Source of the DNA: Pseudomonadota bacterium
Lineage (GTDB): Bacteria; SAR324; XYD2-FULL-50-16; JAHJRI01
Length of the DNA: 22,216 nt
Assembly: GCA_022360105.1 (NCBI GenBank)
Contig: JAKSDL010000129.1
Coordinates: 1-22,216, forward strand
Reading direction: 5' to 3'
Shown: piece after piece, positions 3,144-21,964 of the stretch
How positions within the stretch are numbered: the stretch's first letter is position 1
Layout: each line of letters starts with the position of its first letter
Made by a program: the position numbers and the translations under genes
The notes under the pieces: model-generated
What the model saw: the letters and a program-made list of their open reading frames with translations, nothing else
What the model was told of the DNA's origin: nothing
Databases searched by the model: none

Positions 3144-3998
3144 CTACAAAGCCTCAATTGCCTGACGTATTCTGTTTGCATCGTATCGGGCTGCAATCAA
3201 AGGCTCTTTGTCGAGGTTTTTTATTTTGCTGACAAAATCCGGTTTCTCCTTTTTATAAAGAATCCCGATAGGAATCCGGTCACCCCATTTTTTGGCAAGT
3301 CTCACGGCCGCATCAAAATCACCTGGGTCATGGGGTTCTTCATATAGATCATAGACGCGTTTTTTGTAAAACCCATGTGTATTGACCCGATTATAAGCAA
3401 CACAGGGCTGCAGAATATCTATCATTGAGAATCCCTTGTATTGCATGGCATCCTGAATGATGCGGCCCAGATGTTTTCTGTCGTTGGAAAAAGCCCTGCC
3501 GACAAAACCTGCTCCCAGTTCCAAGGCCATGGTCAACGGATGAAAGGGCTCTGCAATCACCCCATCGGCTTGGATCGAGGTGACAAATCCCATTTCAGCC
3601 GTGGGGGAAGCCTGACCTTTGGTTAAGCCATACACTCCGTTATTATGGACCAACAAGGTAATATCCACATTTCTGCGAATGACATTCATAAAATGGTTGC
3701 CACCTTCCCCGTAAATATCTCCGTCACCTCCGTTGACTACAATTGTAAGATCATGATTTGCCATCTTGGCACCTGTGGCTATAGGTAACGAGCGCCCATG
3801 CAAGGTGTGAAAGAAATTGCACTTCAAAAATTGAGGAGTTTTTGCAGCTTGACCAATGCCGGAGATCATAAGCAATTGGTGGGGGGCAATATTCTGCGCT
3901 GCCAGGGCGTTTTTCAATGCGTCCAGAATCCCGAAATTGCCGCATCCCGGACACCATTTGTTTTCTAAATCATTGTGAAAATCTTCAACTTTGACCAT
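3144..3998 (-). CDS. korB: 2-oxoacid:ferredoxin oxidoreductase, beta subunit
   Basis: A 284-residue ThDP-binding beta subunit of the 2-oxoglutarate/2-oxoacid:ferredoxin oxidoreductase family. Visible: WCPGCGNFGIL with C16 and C19, the ThDP motif GGDGDIYGEGG at residues 90-100 closing with HNNGVYGLTKGQASPT near 118-133, and C199 in ILQPCVAYNR. In many relatives a further cluster cysteine sits in SGIGC. Here that position is glutamine (SGIGQ, residue 50), and a cysteine occurs ten residues on (C60 in FLKCNFFHTLHGR), so the [4Fe-4S] ligation may use C60. The complex oxidatively decarboxylates a 2-oxoacid with CoA and reduces ferredoxin; 2-oxoglutarate is the most likely substrate but is not proven. 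The start ATG lies 3 nt after the korA stop, and its Shine-Dalgarno GGAG overlaps the last korA codons, indicating translational coupling. Confidence 0.92.
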   Translation of the reverse strand: MVKVEDFHNDLENKWCPGCGNFGILDALKNALAAQNIAPHQLLMISGIGQAAKTPQFLKCNFFHTLHGRSLPIATGAKMANHDLTIVVNGGDGDIYGEGGNHFMNVIRRNVDITLLVHNNGVYGLTKGQASPTAEMGFVTSIQADGVIAEPFHPLTMALELGAGFVGRAFSNDRKHLGRIIQDAMQYKGFSMIDILQPCVAYNRVNTHGFYKKRVYDLYEEPHDPGDFDAAVRLAKKWGDRIPIGILYKKEKPDFVSKIKNLDKEPLIAARYDANRIRQAIEAL

Positions 3999-4001
3999 CG
4001 A

Positions 4002-5699
4002 TTACTCCATTATTTTTTTTACGTCTTCTACAATTTCAATAGGAAAAAAAGGTCTGCCGTCGTATTTCAGAACAGTTCTGAAATGAGAAAGACCGGTTTG
4101 CATACGTATAAGCTTTCCCAACTGTGCAGTGGAATTTTGTTCAACGCAAATGAACCTTTTGTTGTCCTTCAACAAGTTCTGGACTTTTTCTGTGGGAAAT
4201 GGCCAAAGGTCTGTAAAATGGAGATAGCCGACATCGTAGTTCTCATTTCTTAATAGTTCCAGGGCCTCCCTGATGGCCCCCTTTGTAGAGCCAAAACCGA
4301 CCAGTAAGATCGAGGCATCGGGATAGTATGCTTCTGGTGCCTGCATTTCAGCTATCATGGCAGGAAGTTTTGCCGCTCTTTTTTCAACCATGATTTTCCG
4401 GTTATGCGGATCTTCGCTCAAATGTCCGTCCGGGGTGTGCTCATTGCCGGAGGCCATAACCAATGCCTTGCCCTGGCAGGGAAGTGCCCTGGGGGATATT
4501 CCGGTTTCAGTTACAGCATATCTCTCGTAGTTTTCAGGGTCCGCTATGTCTTTGTCGGCAACAGTAAAACGATCGATGGTTTCGGATACCTCAAAAGGTT
4601 TTTCTGCAATAAAAATAGAGTCATTAAAGTATTCATCGGTCAACACAATAGCAGGAACCTGGTACTTTTCTGAAAGGTGGAAAGCAAGACGGGTTTTTTC
4701 AAAGGCTTCTTCCGGGGTTCCGGGAGCAAAAACGAAACGGGGAAATTCATCCTGGGAAGCAAAGATAACAAACATCAGATCTGCCTGGGCTGTGCGAGTC
4801 GGCAACCCGGTTGCGGGTCCCGGGCGCTGGCTGTTTACAATCACCAATGGTGTCTCTGTTATCCCGGAAAGACCAAGTCCTTCGACCATTAAACAGAATC
4901 CTCCTCCGGAAGTCGCTGTGATGGCTCTTACACCGGTGTAAGATGCTCCCAAAACCATGTTTACGGCAGCCAACTCGTCTTCGACCTGCTCGACAACCAA
5001 TGGAAAATTTTTTGTGTAGGGAATCAAGCTGGACATGATATCGGTGGCCGGAGACATGGGATAAAATGCTGCAAGTCGGCAATCACCGGCTAAGGCTCCC
5101 AAAGCAACTGATTTCGATCCGTTGATGAGTGGTCTTTTTTCGCTTGACTGATTCCAGTCAAAGGCGTGTTTGAAAGTTTTTCCTGCCACTGCCTGAAATC
5201 CCGCTTCGGCGGCTTTGAGGTTGTTGTCTACTACGGACTGTCCTTTTTTGAGAAAGCGTTTCTCAAGGATAGATTTAAAACTCTCAAAAGCAGCACCTGC
5301 TAATCCCAGAATAGCTCCTGCAGCCACGGTATTTGCCATGACCCGTCCACCGGCCTGACTGGCAAGTTCCGTTACAGGAACATTGATGATATCTGCACCC
5401 GATTCCTCACCGGAATCGTTGATGGCCAGTCCACCTTCAACCAGCTGCTGGTGATGTAAGTCGTAAGTTACTTTGTCAAGTGATACCAGCAAATGAACCC
5501 GGTGATGAGGTGCCATAACCGGTTGATCACTAATTCGAATCTGAAAAAAACTGTGTCCGCCACGAATTCGTGATTCGAAATCGTTCATGGCCATTATATA
5601 AAGTCCTGAATTTCTGGCGACTTCAGCCAGCAGATCCCCCACCGTTTGGATCCCCTGACCGGCAGCACCGCCAATTTTTATAGAAACATCAATTCCCAT
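4002..5699 (-). CDS. korA: 2-oxoacid:ferredoxin oxidoreductase, fused gamma-alpha subunit
   Basis: A 565-residue fusion of the gamma domain (about 1-190, starting with KIGGAAGQGIQTVG and the RGGHSFFQIRIS segment) to the alpha domain (about 200-565, with FYPMSPATDIMSSL, the EDELAAVNMVLGAS stretch and a TSGGGFCLM loop). This arrangement is usual for KorA-type enzymes. The alpha domain supplies the pyrimidine-side ThDP contacts, and with KorB it forms the ferredoxin-reducing oxidoreductase. No PorD-like 2[4Fe-4S] subunit is encoded beside it, so electrons probably go to a free ferredoxin. The ATG at 5699 is preceded by AGGGAGTGACGA, a good ribosome binding site. It is the first gene of the korA-korB operon. 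The distribution of the enzyme fits a reductive or anaerobically operating TCA cycle, but the operating direction cannot be read from sequence. Confidence 0.92.
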   Translation of the reverse strand: MGIDVSIKIGGAAGQGIQTVGDLLAEVARNSGLYIMAMNDFESRIRGGHSFFQIRISDQPVMAPHHRVHLLVSLDKVTYDLHHQQLVEGGLAINDSGEESGADIINVPVTELASQAGGRVMANTVAAGAILGLAGAAFESFKSILEKRFLKKGQSVVDNNLKAAEAGFQAVAGKTFKHAFDWNQSSEKRPLINGSKSVALGALAGDCRLAAFYPMSPATDIMSSLIPYTKNFPLVVEQVEDELAAVNMVLGASYTGVRAITATSGGGFCLMVEGLGLSGITETPLVIVNSQRPGPATGLPTRTAQADLMFVIFASQDEFPRFVFAPGTPEEAFEKTRLAFHLSEKYQVPAIVLTDEYFNDSIFIAEKPFEVSETIDRFTVADKDIADPENYERYAVTETGISPRALPCQGKALVMASGNEHTPDGHLSEDPHNRKIMVEKRAAKLPAMIAEMQAPEAYYPDASILLVGFGSTKGAIREALELLRNENYDVGYLHFTDLWPFPTEKVQNLLKDNKRFICVEQNSTAQLGKLIRMQTGLSHFRTVLKYDGRPFFPIEIVEDVKKIME

Positions 5700-6127: not shown

Positions 6128-6817
6128 TTAAACCGGATCAAACTTATCCTTGGTTGCGCCACAGATCGGGCATACCCAGGAATCGTGAAGATCAGCAAAG
6201 GTTGTACCGGCTTCTATCCCGTGATCCGGATCACCTTTTTCCGGGTCGTAGATATAGCCGCAAATCTGGCATTTATATTTTTCACCAACTGCCGATTCTG
6301 TTTCCTCTTCAAGCCCAGCCTGGTATGTAGGAGCGTTCTTTGGAGATTTGCCCCCTTTGACCCAGTGATAGTAGGCGTATGTCATGGGCTCAGACTGGTT
6401 CAGCACATCAGCATCGACGACTTTACCAACCATAATCGTGTGAGTTCCCACATCCATTGTGTTTACCAATTCCGCCTCCAGGAAGGAAATGGTGTGGTCT
6501 AAGATAATGGGAGCTCCTGTTTGACCCAGCCTGTATTCAATGTTTGTAAATTTGTTAACATCCCTGCCGGTTTTAAAACCAAACTGACCAATCAATGACA
6601 TGGGAGCTTCCTGCGAAAGGATAGACGCCGAAAATACTTTGCTTTCCAAGATGTAATCATGGGTCAGGTTTTCCTTGTTTATTGCAATAGCTATCTGTTC
6701 GGGGGTTGCCGTAACCTGGTTGACCGTGTTTGCTATCTGTCCGTTAAACTTATCACCGGATTTGGAACTGATAATATAAAGTCCGTAACTAATTTTATAT
6801 AGTGCAACTGGATTCAT
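6128..6817 (-). CDS. hrb: High-molecular-weight rubredoxin (flavin reductase-like domain plus rubredoxin)
   Basis: A 229-residue two-domain redox protein. Residues 1-165 match the FMN-binding split-barrel flavin reductase family ([63 protein letters not shown]). After an acidic linker, residues 180-229 form a rubredoxin with C183/C186 and C216/C219. This is the domain order of Moorella Hrb, the NAD(P)H-dependent electron donor to flavodiiron proteins that reduce O2 or NO; the assignment rests on that architecture. No flavodiiron gene is in the window. The ATG has an AGGGAGAG ribosome binding site. The selenocysteine ArsC gene ends 83 nt upstream on the same strand, so the two may share a transcript. 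The rubredoxin part resembles the free rubredoxin encoded at 2598. Confidence 0.88.
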
Positions 6818-6900: not shown

Positions 6901-7257
6901 TCAATTCAATATGCCTAAAATATTTTCGGGTGGTCTGCCCATGGCAAATCTGCCTTTATATTCGACGATCGGGCGTTCCATTAATGCCGGATTTTCCGAG
7001 ATCAGTTTAAGCCACTCATTACGGGATCTATCATCGTTTTTGCTTAACCGCAACTCCTTGAACAATTTGTCCTTGGTACGGATCAACTCTACGGGCTCCA
7101 GATTCAAACCTTTACAGATCTGGTCGAGCTTGTCGGTGTCAAGTGGCGCTTTGAGATATTCCACGATCTCAAACGGAACGGAACTGTTTTTTAGCACATC
7201 CAGTGTTTGTCGGCTTTTGCTTCATCTGGAATTGTGATAGATAATTGCGTTTGCCAT
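6901..7257 (-). CDS. arsC: ArsC-family reductase, predicted selenoprotein (UGA = Sec at codon 12)
   Basis: A 118-residue protein when the in-frame TGA at 7224-7222 is read as selenocysteine. The start is MANAIIYHNSR, then U12, then SKSRQTLDVLKNSS. In E. coli ArsC the nucleophile is Cys12, inside the same HN-x-x-C motif, and the substrate-binding arginines are R60, R94 and R107. Here UGA falls exactly at position 12, and R60 (LIRTKD), R95 (ERPIVEYKG) and R108 (GRPPENIL) are all present, so the fold and active site are intact on both sides of the UGA. The ATG at 7257 has the ribosome binding site AGAGGAA at 7269-7263. The family length (about 115-120) is matched. The terminal stop codon is also TGA. 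A caller that treats the first UGA as a stop yields a 98-residue remnant from the GTG at 7197. Arsenate or another thioredoxin-fold redox substrate is possible; Spx/YffB-like roles cannot be excluded. A nonsense mutation at exactly this codon is the alternative. Confidence 0.85.
7195..7221 (-). promoter_or_regulatory. Candidate bacterial SECIS region just after the Sec codon
   Basis: The 27 nt after the UGA contain a short hairpin: CAC (7205-7203) pairs with GTG (7197-7195) around the loop TGGAT. The apical GG is 20 nt after the UGA, within the range expected for bacterial SECIS elements, and a guanosine is among the first loop bases. The stem is only 3 bp before mismatches, so this is suggestive rather than convincing. 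A proper fold calculation is needed. Confidence 0.35.
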
Positions 7258-7675: not shown

Positions 7676-10147
7676 ATGGCAGATGACGTAAAGATCATTG
7701 AAGACGTAGAAGTCGAAACAGATGATGAGGAATCTTCGAAGAAAAAGGACGATGCAGGTCCGGCAGAGATAGTCGTTGCGGATACGCTTCTACCCGACGT
7801 TTTACCTCTTGTACCTTTGTTCGATAGACCGTTGTTTCCTAAAATGATGGCGCCCGTTGTGGTTGGTAAAAACGAGCAATCAAAAGCATTGATCAAAGCT
7901 GTTGAGTCAGCCTCCAACTACGTCGGTTTAATTCTGGTAAAATCGGAAATGGGAGCTGCACCGCCTCAACCTGGGGAAAACCTGCCCCTGCCTGAATCAG
8001 TCGATGATCTGCATAAAATCGGAGTAGTGGCTAAGGTACTCCAGGTTTCCGGAACAAAAGACGGACACTATGTTCATCTAATGGCGCAGATTGTTGAGCG
8101 GTTTGAAATCAAGGATCTGATGTCTACCAGTCCCTTTTTACGGGGCCGAGTCGAATACAAGTACGAACAAAAATCCAAGTCGGATGAAGAAACAAAGGCG
8201 TATGCTGTTTCCGTTATCAACGTTATCAAGGAATTGGTAAGCTTGAATCCTTTGTTCAAAGAGCAACTGGGTTTTTTGATGGGACAGGTTAATGTCAATC
8301 AGCCCGGCATGCTGGCAGATCTTTCCGCATCGATGACCACCAGTTCAGGAGAAGAATTACAAAAGATCCTTGAAATCCTGGATGTGAGGGAACGAATCGA
8401 ACAAGTGCTGGTTTTATTGAAAAAGGAGATGGAAATCTCAAAGCTGCAATCAAAAATCGACAAACGTATCGAGGAACGATTATCTACCCAGCAAAGAGAA
8501 TTCTTTCTCAAACAACAATTGACCGAGATAAAGAAAGAACTCGGTTTATCAAAAGGTGACCAGGAAACGGAATTGGAGAAATTTCAAAAACGTCTGGAAG
8601 CCCTTAAACTACCGACAGAGGAAGTAAAGAACAGGATCGAAGAGGAAATGAACAAGTTGAAAGTCCTTGAGCCTTCTTCTGCAGAATTCAATGTTACCAG
8701 AAACTACCTGGATTGGTTGACGATACTTCCCTGGGGAGTCACCACCAAAGATAATAAGGATTTGAAAAAAGCAGCCAGAATACTGGATCGCGATCATTAC
8801 GGACTGGATGATGTCAAGGAGCGTATCCTGGAAACCATTTCTGTCGGTGTTCTTAAAGGTGATCTTTCCGGTTCCATCATTTTGCTGGTTGGTGCACCCG
8901 GTGTGGGTAAAACATCGATCGGCCATTCGGTTGCCAGGGCGTTAAATCGTGAGTTTTATCGATTTTCCCTTGGCGGTATGAGGGATGAAGCGGAAATTAA
9001 AGGACATCGCCGGACCTATATCGGTGCTATGCCCGGCAAATTCATTCAAGCCATGAAAACTTGTAAAACCTCCAACCCGGTTATTATGCTGGACGAAATT
9101 GATAAAATTGGTGCCAGTTTCCAGGGAGACCCGGCTTCAGCCCTGCTTGAAGTTTTAGATCCGGAACAGAACAAGGATTTTTTGGATCACTATCTGGATG
9201 TTCGATTTGATTTGTCCAATGTGCTTTTCATTTGCACGGCTAATCAATTGGAAACCATTCCCGGTCCGTTGTTAGACAGGATGGAGACTATTCGGTTATC
9301 AGGTTATGTTTTGGAAGAAAAACTGGAAATTGCCCGCAGATACTTAGTTCCAAAGCAATTGAAAGCCCATGGTTTAAAAAAGGAGCAGATCAAACTGCCA
9401 AAAAATGTGCTCAAGAATATCATCGATGGATATGCCAGAGAGGCTGGTGTTCGGAATTTGGAGAACAACATCAAAAAAATCTTCAGAAAAGCCACCAAAC
9501 AAATCGTTCAAAACGATGTGAAGCAGGTGGATGTAAAAAAAGGAGATCTTTCCGATCTGTTGGGCAGAAGAATGTTCAGCGAGGAGAAAATCTACAAGTC
9601 TCCCAAGGTTGGTGTGGTGATGGGGCTGGCATACACCAGCATGGGTGGCGCGACCCTTTTTATTGAGGCAACCAGGGTTGCTTCCAAAGGACCCGGGTTC
9701 AAACAAACAGGTCAATTAGGGAAGGTTATGGTGGAATCCTCGGAAATCGCTTATACCTATGTACGTTCTTTATTGACGACCAAAAAGGAAGCGGAGTTCT
9801 TTACCTCCAACGCGATCCATCTTCACGTACCCGCTGGTGCAACACCAAAAGACGGACCGTCAGCCGGAATCACCATGGCTTGTGCTCTTTATTCTCTGGT
9901 TAAAAACAAGCCAATCATCAAAGATGTTGCCATGACGGGTGAAATATCGTTGACCGGTCTGGTCATGCCTATTGGTGGGCTCAAAGAAAAAGTGATTGCA
10001 GCAAAACGTGCCAAGGTGTCCACCCTGGTGTTCCCTGCCGAAAACAAAGATGACTGGGAAGATCTGGATGATCACATCAAAGAGGGATTGACGCCTCATT
10101 TCGTCAGCAAGTTTTCGGAAGTACTAAAGATTTGTTTCCCCAAGTAA
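7676..10147 (+). CDS. lon: ATP-dependent protease Lon
   Basis: An 823-residue cytoplasmic AAA+ serine protease that degrades misfolded and regulatory proteins. In order: an acidic, low-complexity N-terminal extension (about residues 1-35); a LON substrate-binding domain (from about 40 to 245, starting LPLVPLFDRPLFPKM); a helical/coiled-coil region; the AAA+ module with Walker A GAPGVGKTS from residue 406 and Walker B IMLDEIDKIG near 470; and the protease domain with S729 in PKDGPSAG and K772 in GGLKEKV forming the catalytic dyad. The length is ordinary for LonA. The ATG has AAGGAGATCGAAG in front. It is a single-gene unit, divergent from arsC, convergent with the ferritin-like gene, and followed 17 nt after the stop by a REP-like hairpin. 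The only oddity is the acidic N-terminus. Confidence 0.97.
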   Translation: MADDVKIIEDVEVETDDEESSKKKDDAGPAEIVVADTLLPDVLPLVPLFDRPLFPKMMAPVVVGKNEQSKALIKAVESASNYVGLILVKSEMGAAPPQPGENLPLPESVDDLHKIGVVAKVLQVSGTKDGHYVHLMAQIVERFEIKDLMSTSPFLRGRVEYKYEQKSKSDEETKAYAVSVINVIKELVSLNPLFKEQLGFLMGQVNVNQPGMLADLSASMTTSSGEELQKILEILDVRERIEQVLVLLKKEMEISKLQSKIDKRIEERLSTQQREFFLKQQLTEIKKELGLSKGDQETELEKFQKRLEALKLPTEEVKNRIEEEMNKLKVLEPSSAEFNVTRNYLDWLTILPWGVTTKDNKDLKKAARILDRDHYGLDDVKERILETISVGVLKGDLSGSIILLVGAPGVGKTSIGHSVARALNREFYRFSLGGMRDEAEIKGHRRTYIGAMPGKFIQAMKTCKTSNPVIMLDEIDKIGASFQGDPASALLEVLDPEQNKDFLDHYLDVRFDLSNVLFICTANQLETIPGPLLDRMETIRLSGYVLEEKLEIARRYLVPKQLKAHGLKKEQIKLPKNVLKNIIDGYAREAGVRNLENNIKKIFRKATKQIVQNDVKQVDVKKGDLSDLLGRRMFSEEKIYKSPKVGVVMGLAYTSMGGATLFIEATRVASKGPGFKQTGQLGKVMVESSEIAYTYVRSLLTTKKEAEFFTSNAIHLHVPAGATPKDGPSAGITMACALYSLVKNKPIIKDVAMTGEISLTGLVMPIGGLKEKVIAAKRAKVSTLVFPAENKDDWEDLDDHIKEGLTPHFVSKFSEVLKICFPK

Positions 10148-10605: not shown

Positions 10606-11115
10606 CTATGCGGATTCCAGATCAAATTCCTCGAAGTCAAACCAGTAGCCCAATCCCCTTGCATTGTCGATTTCTGCGCTGACAATAGCTTCATGTCCTT
10701 CTTCGATTTCAATAAATCTTTCGAAAAGTTCCTTTTCACCAGCCGGTAGTTCATTGACCAGTTTTTTGTAAAAATTTGAGGTTTTGATCTCCATATCCAG
10801 GGCTTTTTGGAAATACTCAATCTCGTTATCCACACCATCTTGTTTGGCAACTTTCTTCAGTTTTTTAACGTTTTTCTGGATAACGTCTTTGTCCGGTACT
10901 ACAGTTTTCAAGGTATCTATTGTTACTTTGCCGGTTTTCTGCCATTCTTCCAGTTTAGCTTCCAGGTATGCCACATGATCGTCTTCTTCCTTGCCCAGTG
11001 TTTCAAAAATCTTCCGTCCAACTTCTGATGTGAATTTTTCTGCATATTTGTTATACACATCAGTAACTTCATTTTCGTATTCCAATGCTGTTTTGATAGC
11101 TTCTTCAAGGTTCAT
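10606..11115 (-). CDS. Ferritin-like diiron protein (rubrerythrin-type, no rubredoxin domain)
   Basis: A 169-residue four-helix-bundle protein. The repeated metal-binding pattern of rubrerythrin-like ferritins is visible: glutamates in helix 1 (EYENEVTDVY, around E12-E16), E44xxH47 in KEEDDHVAYLE, E109 in LDMEIKTSNFY, and E138xxH141 in IEEGHEAIVS. There is no rubredoxin tail, and the C-terminus is acidic/aromatic (GYWFDFEEFDLESA). The likely role is peroxide or O2 detoxification or iron handling in the cytoplasm. I chose the ATG at 11115 because GAGGAGAAGACT precedes it. The frame stays open upstream to 11187, but the added residues (many Arg) lack a ribosome binding site and are unlike the family. 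It is probably monocistronic; lon converges on it. Substrate unknown. Confidence 0.85.
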   Translation of the reverse strand: MNLEEAIKTALEYENEVTDVYNKYAEKFTSEVGRKIFETLGKEEDDHVAYLEAKLEEWQKTGKVTIDTLKTVVPDKDVIQKNVKKLKKVAKQDGVDNEIEYFQKALDMEIKTSNFYKKLVNELPAGEKELFERFIEIEEGHEAIVSAEIDNARGLGYWFDFEEFDLESA

Positions 11116-11441
11116 AGTCTTCTCCTCAACATACGGGGTTATTAAAAAAAGCATTCTTAAAACCAGGCGCCTCCGAGGCTGTAACATTCATGCTTTTGTT
11201 TGCAATTGGTTATAGCACATCAGGATTGGAATTTACACGATAGATTATCATTTTCTCCCTCCCGGTTTAAAGTAAGATGCTCGGTAAACTGCAAAAGCTT
11301 TGCCGTTTGGAGCGATATCGATGAATCAAGGCAAATAAAAAAGGCTTGATTTCCTGCCATTGCTAATTGACAAGGAATTCAAACCTTTTAAGTTTTTTAG
11401 AAATAAACAGATCGCCAAGTATCAATCGGAGTTAGGCAATT
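11116..11441. other. Intergenic region between two ferritin-like genes
   Basis: A 326-nt gap holding the 5' region of the ferritin-like gene and the 3' flank of the rhodanese-ferritin gene. A small palindrome GCCTC-C-GAGGC sits at 11169-11179, about 54 nt upstream of the ferritin-like start. I see no gene, no convincing promoter and no terminator in it. Confidence 0.5.
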
Positions 11442-12284
11442 CTAAAGGTTATTCTCAAGATAGTCATCCAGTTTTTTTGAGACATATGCCAGATGAACCC
11501 GCTCTGAATCGGCCATTTCTTCAAAGAAGTGTTTTACTTCAGTGTTTTCTGCTTGCATGGAAAGTCGATAGTAAAAATCGAGGGCCTGTGTCTCAAAAGC
11601 GAGGGAAAGGCTATACACTTTTGATATGTTATTCATATGCACCAACGATCGAATAAGAGACATATTCAGAAATCCGCCTCCTTCCGTCAATTGGCCCTGA
11701 AAGCGATTTTCTGCCTTTTGAATCGGCGTATGGCCCAGTTCAATATGATACTTTCTTGCCAGTTTCTGCATGTGCAGAACCTCGTATTGAGCAAGTTCCC
11801 GGTAAAGATCCTTATAAAGTTCATCATCCGTTTCTTTAGCCAACTGGATGTAAAACTGTCTCAATCCTTCTTCCATGGCATAAGCCAAGGTCACGGCATC
11901 AGGGAAATCAGCTTCCGGGAGCAGCAAGTTTAAATTCAAGTCAAAGTGGCCGAAAGCTTTTAACCCGGTCCAGGTCTCGATACCACCCCGGATTACAGCG
12001 ACATCTTCAAAATTGTGACTATGCAGCCAACGGGCGGCCATCAAAGCCCGATTGCCGGTCTGGCTGTATAATAATATTGGTTTTTGCTTATTCAGGTGCG
12101 CTCTACCGTCGGTTAAGGTGACCAAGGGAAGCGGTATTGCGCCTGGAAGATGGTTTATATTGTATTCTTTGATCTGTCGGACATCGACCAGTTGTATGCC
12201 AGAGCTGTTTACGGTGTGAAGAGTTGCCTTAGCTTCATCGGCCGTGATTATCTTAATATCCGGTATGATCTGATCCCATTTCAT
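11442..12284 (-). CDS. Rhodanese-like domain fused to ferritin-like domain; rhodanese nucleophile is Ser
   Basis: A 280-residue fusion. Residues 10-112 form a single rhodanese domain (ITADEAKATL, LVDVRQIKEYNINHLPGAIPLP, RGGIETW). The active-site loop, normally C-x-x-G-[NH]-R, reads S74-QTGNR, and the whole protein has no cysteine, so it should lack sulfurtransferase activity by the usual persulfide route. Residues 128-275 form a rubrerythrin-like ferritin domain with the diiron ligands apparently complete: E138/E139, E168xxH171 in QYEVLHMQKL, E231 and E261xxH264 in DSERVHLAYV. Rhodanese-ferritin fusions are a known architecture in anaerobes and metal reducers. The ATG has AAGGAATGAACCA before it. 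A long upstream region carries a TTGTCTCA...TGAGACA repeat. A binding or scaffolding role for the rhodanese domain is inference. Confidence 0.85.
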   Translation of the reverse strand: MKWDQIIPDIKIITADEAKATLHTVNSSGIQLVDVRQIKEYNINHLPGAIPLPLVTLTDGRAHLNKQKPILLYSQTGNRALMAARWLHSHNFEDVAVIRGGIETWTGLKAFGHFDLNLNLLLPEADFPDAVTLAYAMEEGLRQFYIQLAKETDDELYKDLYRELAQYEVLHMQKLARKYHIELGHTPIQKAENRFQGQLTEGGGFLNMSLIRSLVHMNNISKVYSLSLAFETQALDFYYRLSMQAENTEVKHFFEEMADSERVHLAYVSKKLDDYLENNL

Positions 12285-19149: not shown

Positions 19150-21405
19150 ATGTTGCCTAAATTCATTATTACGGTTTTTCTGTGCTTGGTGTTGCTGTTG
19201 ACAGGGTGCGTTGATCCCGGGAGCGGCAAGAGAACGCCCCGGGTGGAAAATGGATTGTTGGATCTGTCCGGGTGGGACTTTTCAAATTCGGGTGTTATCT
19301 CACCCAGGGGACAGTGGGCATTCTATAAAAATAGGTATATGGCCCTGGCTGGAGAAAAAGCCAGGACGGCCATACCGGTAGATGCTTTTATAAACGTCCC
19401 CGGCAGGTGGAGTAACTACAAAGATCTAAATGGAGATGCCATCTCGCCTTATGGGTTTGCAACCTATCATCTTAAAATAATCAACTCAAGTCCACTTCCC
19501 GATTCTACCGATCTTGTCATCTACCTGCCCCATGTGAGGGCTGCTTCCGAGCTGTATATCAAGACTGAAAACCAGGCTATCCGTCTTACATCAAAAAACG
19601 GACAAACAGGTACCAGCAAAGAGACTTATAGGCCCTGGTACGGGGGGCTGAACGGAAAAATAGATCCCCGGGGGGTGACAGATGTATTTCTCCAGATCAG
19701 CAATTTTGATGATGCTGCAGTACAAGGGGTGGACGAACAATTTTATATCGGTACCAGCAAACAAATTGCGAAATTGAAAAATTCCCGTCGCCATAGGGAT
19801 TTTATTATGCTGGGGATGATCATCTTTGCCGGGGCTTTTATGCTGGTGTTTTTTCCCCTGCGAAGGTCAGAACTGGCCCCGCTCTGGCTAGGATTGTTTA
19901 GCCTGTCATTTGCCTTGAGAATCTATGTTTTAAGATTATACGCATTTGAATACCTGGCGAATACTGCTTGCTATGAAGTTCTTTTTCGAGCCAATTATTT
20001 CACCGTTTACATGCTTACAATCACCTATATTGCTTTCTTGCGTTCTGTTTTCCCCAACCAGTTTGCCAGGTCAATAGCTGTTATATGTTATACTATCGCT
20101 CTGTTATTCGGTCTTATTGTGCATTTGGCGCCACCGGCAGTCATCTCAAGTCTGCTGGATCCTTATACTGTCTTTTTGGTTTTGTGTTTTATCTGGGTTG
20201 GATACGGACAGTTAAAAACCATTATCATCAGGACTGATATCCTGTCCGTCATGACTCTTGTTGGTTCGTCCATCATTATTATCACCACCGGATATGATAT
20301 TATTACTAATTTATTGGGCTATGAACTTCAAAATATCATGCAATTTGGCATTACCCTTAACATTCTATGCATGTCTATTGTCGTTTCTGTGCACAATGCC
20401 AGGGAAAGAAACCGGGTTGAGCGACTGACGGCGGAACTGAGCCAGGAGGTGGAAATAAGGAAAAATGCGGAGAAAGAGATCAGCATGCTGTATCGTCAAC
20501 TGGCTGATCGTGCCATAAGCACTGACGTTAAACTTCAAATGACTGAAAAGGAACTGCTTAAATCGGAACATAAAACGGAAATTGCTGATCTTACCACCGG
20601 TACCTTGCACAATGTTAAAAACGTCTTAACCAGTGTTAAAACATCAGCAGAACTGTTAAGGAATGCCATGAAGGGGCAGTTCGTTGAAGGCTATGTAAAA
20701 GCAGTCGATATGCTGAAAACAAAGATGGCAGGATTGATTGAACATACCAAGGAAGATCCCAAAGCCAAATTATTGTTTGAATATTTTGTAAAACTGGAAT
20801 CAGTGTTAGAAAGCGAGGAAAGGATCAACAACGACCATGTGGCAAGGATATTGGAGAAAATTAGGGCCATCGAAGAGATTATTAACTCCCAACAGCGATA
20901 TGGCGGAACCGAAAAAAACGAACCGATCGATCCGGTACTAGTGCTGGATGATGCCTTAAATATGCAGCTGGGAACCATGTCCAAGCGTCAGATCCGAATT
21001 AATCGGAAAATTGATCCTTTACCTCACATCAAGGTCGAGAAGGTTAAATTGTTGCATGTACTTATCAATCTGATCAAAAACGCCATAGAAGCCATGATTA
21101 ACACCCCGGAACAGCAAAAAATCATGACTGTGGAGACACACAATCAACATGAAAAAGTGCAAATTGTGGTCAGAGATAACGGACATGGCATTGCACCGCA
21201 CAACCTGGACAAGATTTTTTCACGGGGGTTTACAACAAAAAAGGAAGGTCATGGGTTTGGATTAAACAGTTCGTTTAATTATATAAATGAAATGGGTGGC
21301 ACTATAGCATGCAAAAGTGAAGGAGTGAACAAGGGTGCAACTTTCATTTTGGAGTTTGAACTGACTGACAAAAAAGGTAAAGAGCATGAAACAATTGATA
21401 AATGA
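19150..21405 (+). CDS. Sensor histidine kinase with 7TMR-DISM-type sensor
   Basis: A 751-residue membrane kinase. The N-terminus is a signal peptide ending in LLTGC (C20), a lipoprotein-type lipobox. Residues about 35-210 form an extracytoplasmic beta-rich domain like 7TMR-DISMED2 (GYWxF-like motif ISPRGQWAFYKN, VPGRWSNY, GFATYHLKI). Seven hydrophobic segments follow from about 215 to 420, then a coiled coil (RNRVERLTAELSQEVEIRKNAEKE-type heptads, about 418-475). The phosphoacceptor is H487 in TLHNVKNVLTSV, and the ATPase domain has NLIKNAIEAM (N box), DNGHGI (G1, near 676) and GHGFGLN (G2, near 700). The input ligand is unknown. The start is the first ATG after a stop in this frame and gives a good signal peptide, but the ribosome binding site is weak. 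No response regulator is adjacent. The 3' end overlaps the next gene by 20 nt. Confidence 0.92.
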   Translation: MLPKFIITVFLCLVLLLTGCVDPGSGKRTPRVENGLLDLSGWDFSNSGVISPRGQWAFYKNRYMALAGEKARTAIPVDAFINVPGRWSNYKDLNGDAISPYGFATYHLKIINSSPLPDSTDLVIYLPHVRAASELYIKTENQAIRLTSKNGQTGTSKETYRPWYGGLNGKIDPRGVTDVFLQISNFDDAAVQGVDEQFYIGTSKQIAKLKNSRRHRDFIMLGMIIFAGAFMLVFFPLRRSELAPLWLGLFSLSFALRIYVLRLYAFEYLANTACYEVLFRANYFTVYMLTITYIAFLRSVFPNQFARSIAVICYTIALLFGLIVHLAPPAVISSLLDPYTVFLVLCFIWVGYGQLKTIIIRTDILSVMTLVGSSIIIITTGYDIITNLLGYELQNIMQFGITLNILCMSIVVSVHNARERNRVERLTAELSQEVEIRKNAEKEISMLYRQLADRAISTDVKLQMTEKELLKSEHKTEIADLTTGTLHNVKNVLTSVKTSAELLRNAMKGQFVEGYVKAVDMLKTKMAGLIEHTKEDPKAKLLFEYFVKLESVLESEERINNDHVARILEKIRAIEEIINSQQRYGGTEKNEPIDPVLVLDDALNMQLGTMSKRQIRINRKIDPLPHIKVEKVKLLHVLINLIKNAIEAMINTPEQQKIMTVETHNQHEKVQIVVRDNGHGIAPHNLDKIFSRGFTTKKEGHGFGLNSSFNYINEMGGTIACKSEGVNKGATFILEFELTDKKGKEHETIDK

Positions 21406-21964
21406 ACCCCCTAGAATCCCCTTTTTGCTGCGAATTGGAATCTGGATCTCGGAAAAAATAGCCGGAAAACGAATGATTCCGGCCCGATTGCTTGCGTGGT
21501 CACCCAGATTGGCCCTGGGTGCTGCTTTTTTTGAATCGTTAGTGGTTCAAAAAGATCCCACTCTTTCCTCAAGACTGTTAAAGCTGGTACGAATGCAGGT
21601 TTCACTAAATGTTTCCTGCCCGTTTTGTATCGATATGAATTCCGCAAACAAGGAAGACTATAATATTACCTGGCAAGAAATTAAGACGATGCAGGGCGAC
21701 ATCCAAAATCATAATGTAGAATCTCTAAGCTCAAAGGAAAGGCTGGCAATGGAATTGGCCAATAGAGTGTCTCAAACGCCTCCCACGGTGGACGATAACT
21801 TCTCACAACGTCTGAAGACCTTGTTCTCCGAAAGGGAGATTTTGGTTTTACTGGCTACCGCAGCCCAGGTCAACTATTGGGCTCGACTTATTCAAACCAT
21901 GGGAATTGCCCCGGTCGGTTATTCGGATGATCCCAAAATCAGCATTCTGCAAAAACTGATGTAG
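21386..21964 (+). CDS. Carboxymuconolactone decarboxylase / AhpD-like family protein
   Basis: A 192-residue all-helical protein with the AhpD-like redox motif C78-PF-C81 in SLNVSCPFCIDMNSANKED. In AhpD the motif continues to a histidine (CxxCxxxH). Here the equivalent position is N85, so peroxidase-type chemistry may be altered. Family members range from decarboxylases to thiol-dependent hydroperoxide reductases; the CxxC favours a thiol redox role, and the substrate is unknown. The ATG at 21386 lies within the last codons of the histidine kinase gene, overlapping by 20 nt, with GGTAAAGAGC in front. This indicates translational coupling and a functional link between the membrane sensor and this redox protein. 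No signal peptide is obvious. Confidence 0.85.
   Translation: MKQLINEPPRIPFLLRIGIWISEKIAGKRMIPARLLAWSPRLALGAAFFESLVVQKDPTLSSRLLKLVRMQVSLNVSCPFCIDMNSANKEDYNITWQEIKTMQGDIQNHNVESLSSKERLAMELANRVSQTPPTVDDNFSQRLKTLFSEREILVLLATAAQVNYWARLIQTMGIAPVGYSDDPKISILQKLM

Follow-up and report, generated by a model that had tools for sequence, protein, structure and literature searches.

The window, by which we mean the whole 22,216-nucleotide stretch of DNA analyzed here, comes from a bacterium that is close to the SAR324 group of marine bacteria and contains an ArsC-family (TIGR00014) gene whose UGA at codon 12 very probably encodes selenocysteine (Sec). This reading follows from the occurrence of TGA at the same codon in relatives, the presence of Cys there otherwise, the lack of other stops, and the Sec machinery found in the family. 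The features of the gene are:

6901..7257, minus strand: putative Sec-containing ArsC-family gene of 118 codons and a stop, with UGA as codon 12.
7222..7224, minus strand: proposed Sec codon, a TGA in frame at the position of the catalytic Cys, from codon reading and homologue comparison.
6901..6903, minus strand: natural stop, TGA as well, from frame reading and the window gene list.

The minus-strand frame starts at an ATG (7257-7255) with AGAGGA a few bases 5' of it, bearing out the start codon and ribosome binding site proposed in a first-pass annotation of this DNA, and reads MANAIIYHNSR-TGA-SKSRQTL... with a single internal TGA. The full-length frame of 118 residues is intact on both sides of the UGA, as had been claimed, and the placement of this UGA (TGA at 7224-7222) at the catalytic Cys position is confirmed by the Cys of aligned homologues. 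The active-site residues of the window protein are U12, R60, R95, and R108, with roles that we assume from E. coli ArsC, and its motif is U-S-K-S (UxxS); all three arginines lie where the annotation had located them. The read-through protein matches PF03960 ArsC (Pfam) with 65.6 bits against a cut-off of 24 and, with Cys written for Sec, passes TIGR00014 arsC (NCBIfam) by a narrow margin (110 bits versus a cut-off of 106.05).

The nearest locus among named genome contigs, L001, belongs to a SAR324 cluster metagenome bin and carries an orthologue that is 75% identical and has TGA at the same codon. Among the 65 rows of a tblastn search, codon 12 was TGA in seven rows representing six loci (the window; L001 and L054, which are one locus; L055, L056, L057, and L106) and TGT or TGC in 57, of which L002 and L058 are one locus; the site was uncovered in the remaining row (L109). 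Random stops and frame decay in close relatives had been named in the annotation as signs that would speak against its reading, and no other stop was present within the match in any of the 65 printed rows. The gene could in principle be a pseudogene, or its TGA a sequencing error of TGC or TGT, either of which is one base away, and L106 (genome G033), a lone TGA copy among Cys-encoding kin, could be such a case. For the window we regard this as very improbable, since TGA recurs at codon 12 in six loci with an otherwise uninterrupted match, the relatives carry Sec machinery, and dN/dS between the window gene and L001 is 0.185, which shows that the gene is under purifying selection.

A protein search returned 581 homologues, and residues at the site were counted in the best 120 of these. 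Cys was found in 112, seven started after the site, and one, P0002, had Trp. P0002 is 97% identical to the window protein and carries Trp at two places, codon 12 and the natural stop; these residues probably reflect TGA codons called as Trp, which would produce this pattern. Taken at face value, P0002 would favor a code in which UGA means tryptophan in the organism of the window. We consider this reading next to impossible, given that Trp also replaces the natural stop of P0002, that this entry is the only one with Trp among the best 120 homologues, and that five of the 17 listed window genes, the ArsC gene among them, use TGA as terminator, with TGG used in 16 of 17 and an in-frame TGA in the ArsC gene alone.

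It is also highly unlikely that the UGA is a true stop followed by a downstream start, which would yield a shorter protein of 87 or 98 residues. The frame does provide a GTG, and the mechanical ORF list offers a GTG-start remnant of 98 residues (6901-7197), the same remnant that, according to the annotation, standard callers leave when they miss the gene. Likewise, the database entry for the window's product is an 87-residue fragment (P0004), which together with L001's own P0007 is among the seven of the best 120 homologues that begin past the site. However, codons 1-11 stay similar throughout the TGA orthologues, and the 112 homologues with Cys span the site. A fragment from a downstream start would presumably be without the first strand and the catalytic loop of the ArsC fold.

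In the family around G001, the genome of L001, ArsC matches were present in six of 10 genomes: G001, G004, G005, and G006 have the TGA form, G003 has the Cys form, and G007 has a partial Cys match. In the phylum-level group around G001, 19 of 52 genomes had an ArsC match, five of these with TGA. We calculated a tree from 81 rows after masking the active-site residue; it is based on few columns, leaves 32 of 77 inner branches open, and labels L109 as Cys although its site is uncovered. The window falls into a set of 14 rows (SH-aLRT 95) made up of five TGA rows, five fragments, the Trp-written copy, and three Cys rows, the latter being two distinct sequences (P0003 and L058/L002). At least four switches between Sec and Cys are required on this tree. 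Within it, the Sec label compared with the fragments behaved no better than shuffled labels (392/500).

L106 lies outside the window's tree set, where it is the lone TGA copy among Cys orthologues, and has a UxxC form. Its TGA could reflect a sequencing error or a separate acquisition of Sec. The hairpin scan of L106 gave only a 4-bp hairpin elsewhere and none at the usual place; its genome, G033, has SelA. Similar genes, which we take to resemble cobalamin genes, surround both L106 and a Cys relative of it (L114, L115).

The sel genes, which the annotation had proposed to look for, were searched in relatives of the window's organism, with the family defined as the 10 genomes around G001. Because control genomes match several sel families below cut-off, we relied on the cut-offs. 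All four components were present: tRNA-Sec (selC) and SelB in 10 of 10 family genomes, and SelA and SelD in nine of 10 each. ARAGORN names a tRNA-SeC in L046 too. The complete set, i.e., tRNA-Sec, SelA, SelB, and SelD all above cut-off, occurs in the TGA-form genomes G001, G004, G005, and G006, and SelA is above cut-off in 43 of the 52 phylum-level genomes. The lineage thus uses Sec widely. In G003, which has a Cys ArsC in the same neighborhood, tRNA-Sec and SelB are retained and no SelA or SelD match was found; these missing matches are weak evidence of absence (the completeness of the bin is not given). Altogether, TGA orthologues, Cys homologues, purifying selection, and the sel genes of relatives support the ArsC-family selenoprotein proposed in the annotation. 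As a separate observation, SelD above cut-off carries a TGA of its own in eight of 10 family genomes (loci L087-L096); in G001, SelD is in pieces and the TGA sits on a separate piece below cut-off.

A plausible candidate for a bacterial SECIS element lies just 3' of the UGA:

7191..7208, minus strand: candidate bacterial SECIS hairpin, +17 to +34 relative to the U of the UGA codon; the loop is UGGAU (+23 to +27).

A SECIS search in this region had been proposed in the annotation. Around the UGG at +23 to +25, hairpins with 5- to 7-bp stems and GG in or at the loop can be drawn in L001, L055, and L057; L056 has a weak hairpin that needs another register, and the window copy is poor, with only 3 bp plus a mismatch. 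The fold z-score against shuffled sequence was +0.41 for the window, i.e., no better than shuffled, and -1.21 for L001. Covariation among the five sequences was not significant (151/500 shuffles reach it), and the automatic consensus fold picked a structure other than the candidate hairpin. When Sec and Cys copies were compared (6 versus 54), we obtained p = 0.053 for stem length and p = 0.080 for folding energy. In the hairpins of SelD, loop Gs were located at +24 to +26 in six of the seven SelD loci read (L093, L095, and L096 were left out of this reading); L089 differs, and the loop Gs of L092 come from the second-ranked fold. The loop Gs of the ArsC hairpin candidates, at +24/+25, are near these places. 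Since folding, scan, pairing, consensus, and the Sec/Cys tests give weak support, the selenoprotein claim is not based on the hairpin. Nor do we count an excess of nucleotide conservation 3' of the UGA as evidence: codon shuffling showed the 30-nt stretch of identity with L001 to be unexceptional (1441/10000).

We propose the following mechanism for the window protein. SelB and tRNA-Sec would decode the UGA at codon 12 as Sec, with the short hairpin just 3' of it serving as SECIS. Sec12 would then act as the nucleophile in the setting H8-x3-U12-x2-S15 together with R60, R95, and R108. A conserved second Cys is absent from the ArsC alignment, and the TGA relative L057 is without any Cys, which suggests that an external thiol partner is needed; the adduct on Sec12 might be resolved by, e.g., glutathione/glutaredoxin. 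We are less sure of this chemistry than of the selenoprotein itself. Cys48 was considered as a resolving thiol and set aside, as it is missing in L056, L057, and L058.

Nearly the entire window protein can be aligned with the Cys-type ArsC structures 3rdw, 3f0i, and 1i9d. The site YHN-x-[K/R]-[U/C]-SKSR is common to the window protein and the two structures shown, where Cys takes the place of Sec. Spx and the arsC-related regulators are a related family with weaker matches that stay below the NCBIfam cut-offs.

In the window, the ArsC gene is surrounded by the following genes:

6128..6817, minus strand: flavin reductase-rubredoxin protein (Pfam), next gene downstream of ArsC.
4002..5699, minus strand: 2-oxoacid:acceptor oxidoreductase alpha subunit (NCBIfam), follows ArsC in L110-L113.
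3144..3998, minus strand: 2-oxoacid:acceptor oxidoreductase beta subunit (NCBIfam and neighborhood comparison).
10606..11187, minus strand: rubrerythrin/ferritin-like diiron protein (Pfam), homologue near ArsC in L110-L113.
11442..12284, minus strand: rhodanese-rubrerythrin fusion (Pfam), homologue near ArsC in L110, L111, L112, and L002.
7676-10147, plus strand: Lon protease gene, splits the window neighborhood.

Comparison of loci revealed a conserved neighborhood of 2-oxoacid:acceptor oxidoreductase and diiron genes that is common to the TGA and Cys forms. In L110, L111, and L112, which have TGA, and in L113/L002, which has Cys, the alpha and beta genes of the oxidoreductase come after ArsC on the same strand. 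All four loci (L110-L113) have a homologue of the window diiron gene upstream of ArsC, and Pfam confirmed a ferritin gene in both loci scanned, L110 and L113. The rhodanese-rubrerythrin homologue is likewise present in four of four loci; for G003 the evidence comes from L002, because L113 begins too late to include it. Conservation is lower for the flavin reductase-rubredoxin gene, which adjoins ArsC in the window, where it lies between ArsC and the oxidoreductase genes, and in L001, is found nearby on the opposite strand in L111, and was not found near ArsC in L110, L112, and L113/L002. L001 shares with the window both this gene (88% identical protein) and the Lon gene (97%) as flanks of ArsC, and its contig ends before the oxidoreductase position. 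The rubredoxin and diiron neighbors named in the annotation are borne out by Pfam matches. Among more distantly related ArsC loci (L003-L045; 43 in all, several of them on short contigs), searches with five neighbor proteins gave no match at E 1e-20. We also observed that Lon parts the ArsC and 2-oxoacid oxidoreductase genes of the window from its diiron genes, and that these groups are together in relatives.

Regarding the function of the protein, assignment to the ArsC family stands (TIGR00014), whereas we doubt that "arsenate reductase" describes its physiological role, in view of the redox neighborhood and the separate ACR3 loci. Judging from gene context, we suggest that the Sec protein acts in its redox neighborhood as a thiol-linked reductase; arsenate reduction by it is possible. 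Our tentative proposal, which we put forward with less than even confidence, is that Sec ArsC in the SAR324-like lineage is a dedicated part of oxygen and redox defense and not of arsenic resistance, arsenate being dealt with by a distinct ars locus that has an ArsC of its own. Its partners would be diiron and rubredoxin-type proteins, and it might protect or regulate the oxygen-sensitive 2-oxoacid:acceptor oxidoreductase, e.g., by reducing an oxidized thiol, a persulfide, or another oxyanion.

The protein could instead be a selenoprotein and still serve ordinary arsenate detoxification, with Sec12 reducing arsenate and arsenite leaving the cell via ACR3. The passing of TIGR00014, the three active-site arginines, and ACR3 above cut-off in all 10 genomes of the family are in line with this explanation. 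However, ACR3 (above cut-off) and the ArsC gene are on different contigs in G001 and G003-G006, no arsenic-resistance gene was recognized among the part of the neighbors that was scanned in the window and L110-L113, and the conserved neighbors are the 2-oxoacid oxidoreductase and diiron proteins. Moreover, in three of the five ACR3 neighborhoods listed (L116, L118, and L119, all from TGA-form genomes), ACR3 is adjoined by another, phosphatase-type ArsC-like gene, which in NCBIfam matches arsC_pI258_fam best and stays below the cut-off of that family. L117 (G003) has no ArsC-like gene beside ACR3, and the gene calls of the fifth neighborhood, L120, are unreliable. The redox neighborhood, and the separate ACR3 with a different ArsC-like gene in three TGA-form genomes, make detoxification doubtful as the main role of Sec ArsC, and we rate it as a possible but rather unlikely explanation.

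A Sec-containing ArsC of the UxxS type is a kind of protein already known from 2005 and 2008, and the annotation was right in recalling published ArsC-like selenoproteins. The Sargasso Sea study reported 14 Sec-containing arsenate reductases with UXXS (PMC1088965), and the GOS study listed 77 UxxS sequences as "ArsC 1" (PMC2398784). A 2022 review includes the Sec-containing arsenate reductase family (PMC9312934), and a 2026 review lists it and calls the functions of the selenoprotein group largely uncharacterised (PMC13188914). The published UxxS Sec arsenate reductase (COG1393/TIGR00014) is like the window protein in family, motif, and the use of Sec for Cys. Compared with what these sources say of the UxxS set, the host group, the gene neighborhood, and the occurrence of Sec and Cys forms in one neighborhood are visible here. 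The UxxC-type Sec arsenate reductase-like protein (NF041106, PMC13188914; "Arsenate reductase 2" in GOS) is likewise an ArsC-like Sec protein; in contrast, the window protein has UxxS, and NF041106 is absent among its NCBIfam matches at E 0.001. We did not find a conserved neighborhood of Sec ArsC described in the part of the open-licence PMC literature that our searches covered, and the sole paper found that combines SAR324 with selenoproteins lists two single cells of SAR324 in one of its tables (PMC5029168).

A published selenoprotein family of putative function thus gains a host lineage, a conserved neighborhood, and natural TGA and Cys versions. As these versions occur in comparable settings, the benefit of Sec in the ArsC fold becomes testable. 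The example also illustrates how gene callers hide such genes, with the window's own product entered as an 87-residue fragment and its 97%-identical copy P0002 written with Trp.

Two further features were seen outside the ArsC gene. The window encodes at 21386-21964 a protein with the motif CPFCIDM that had no Pfam match at E 0.001 and that, judging by this motif, we presume to resemble a relative of AhpD/carboxymuconolactone decarboxylase. L001 contains at 1-330 and 4580-4621 repeated short palindromes of the type gatgggtaac...gttacccatc around genes, and these stretches are possibly a dispersed repeat.
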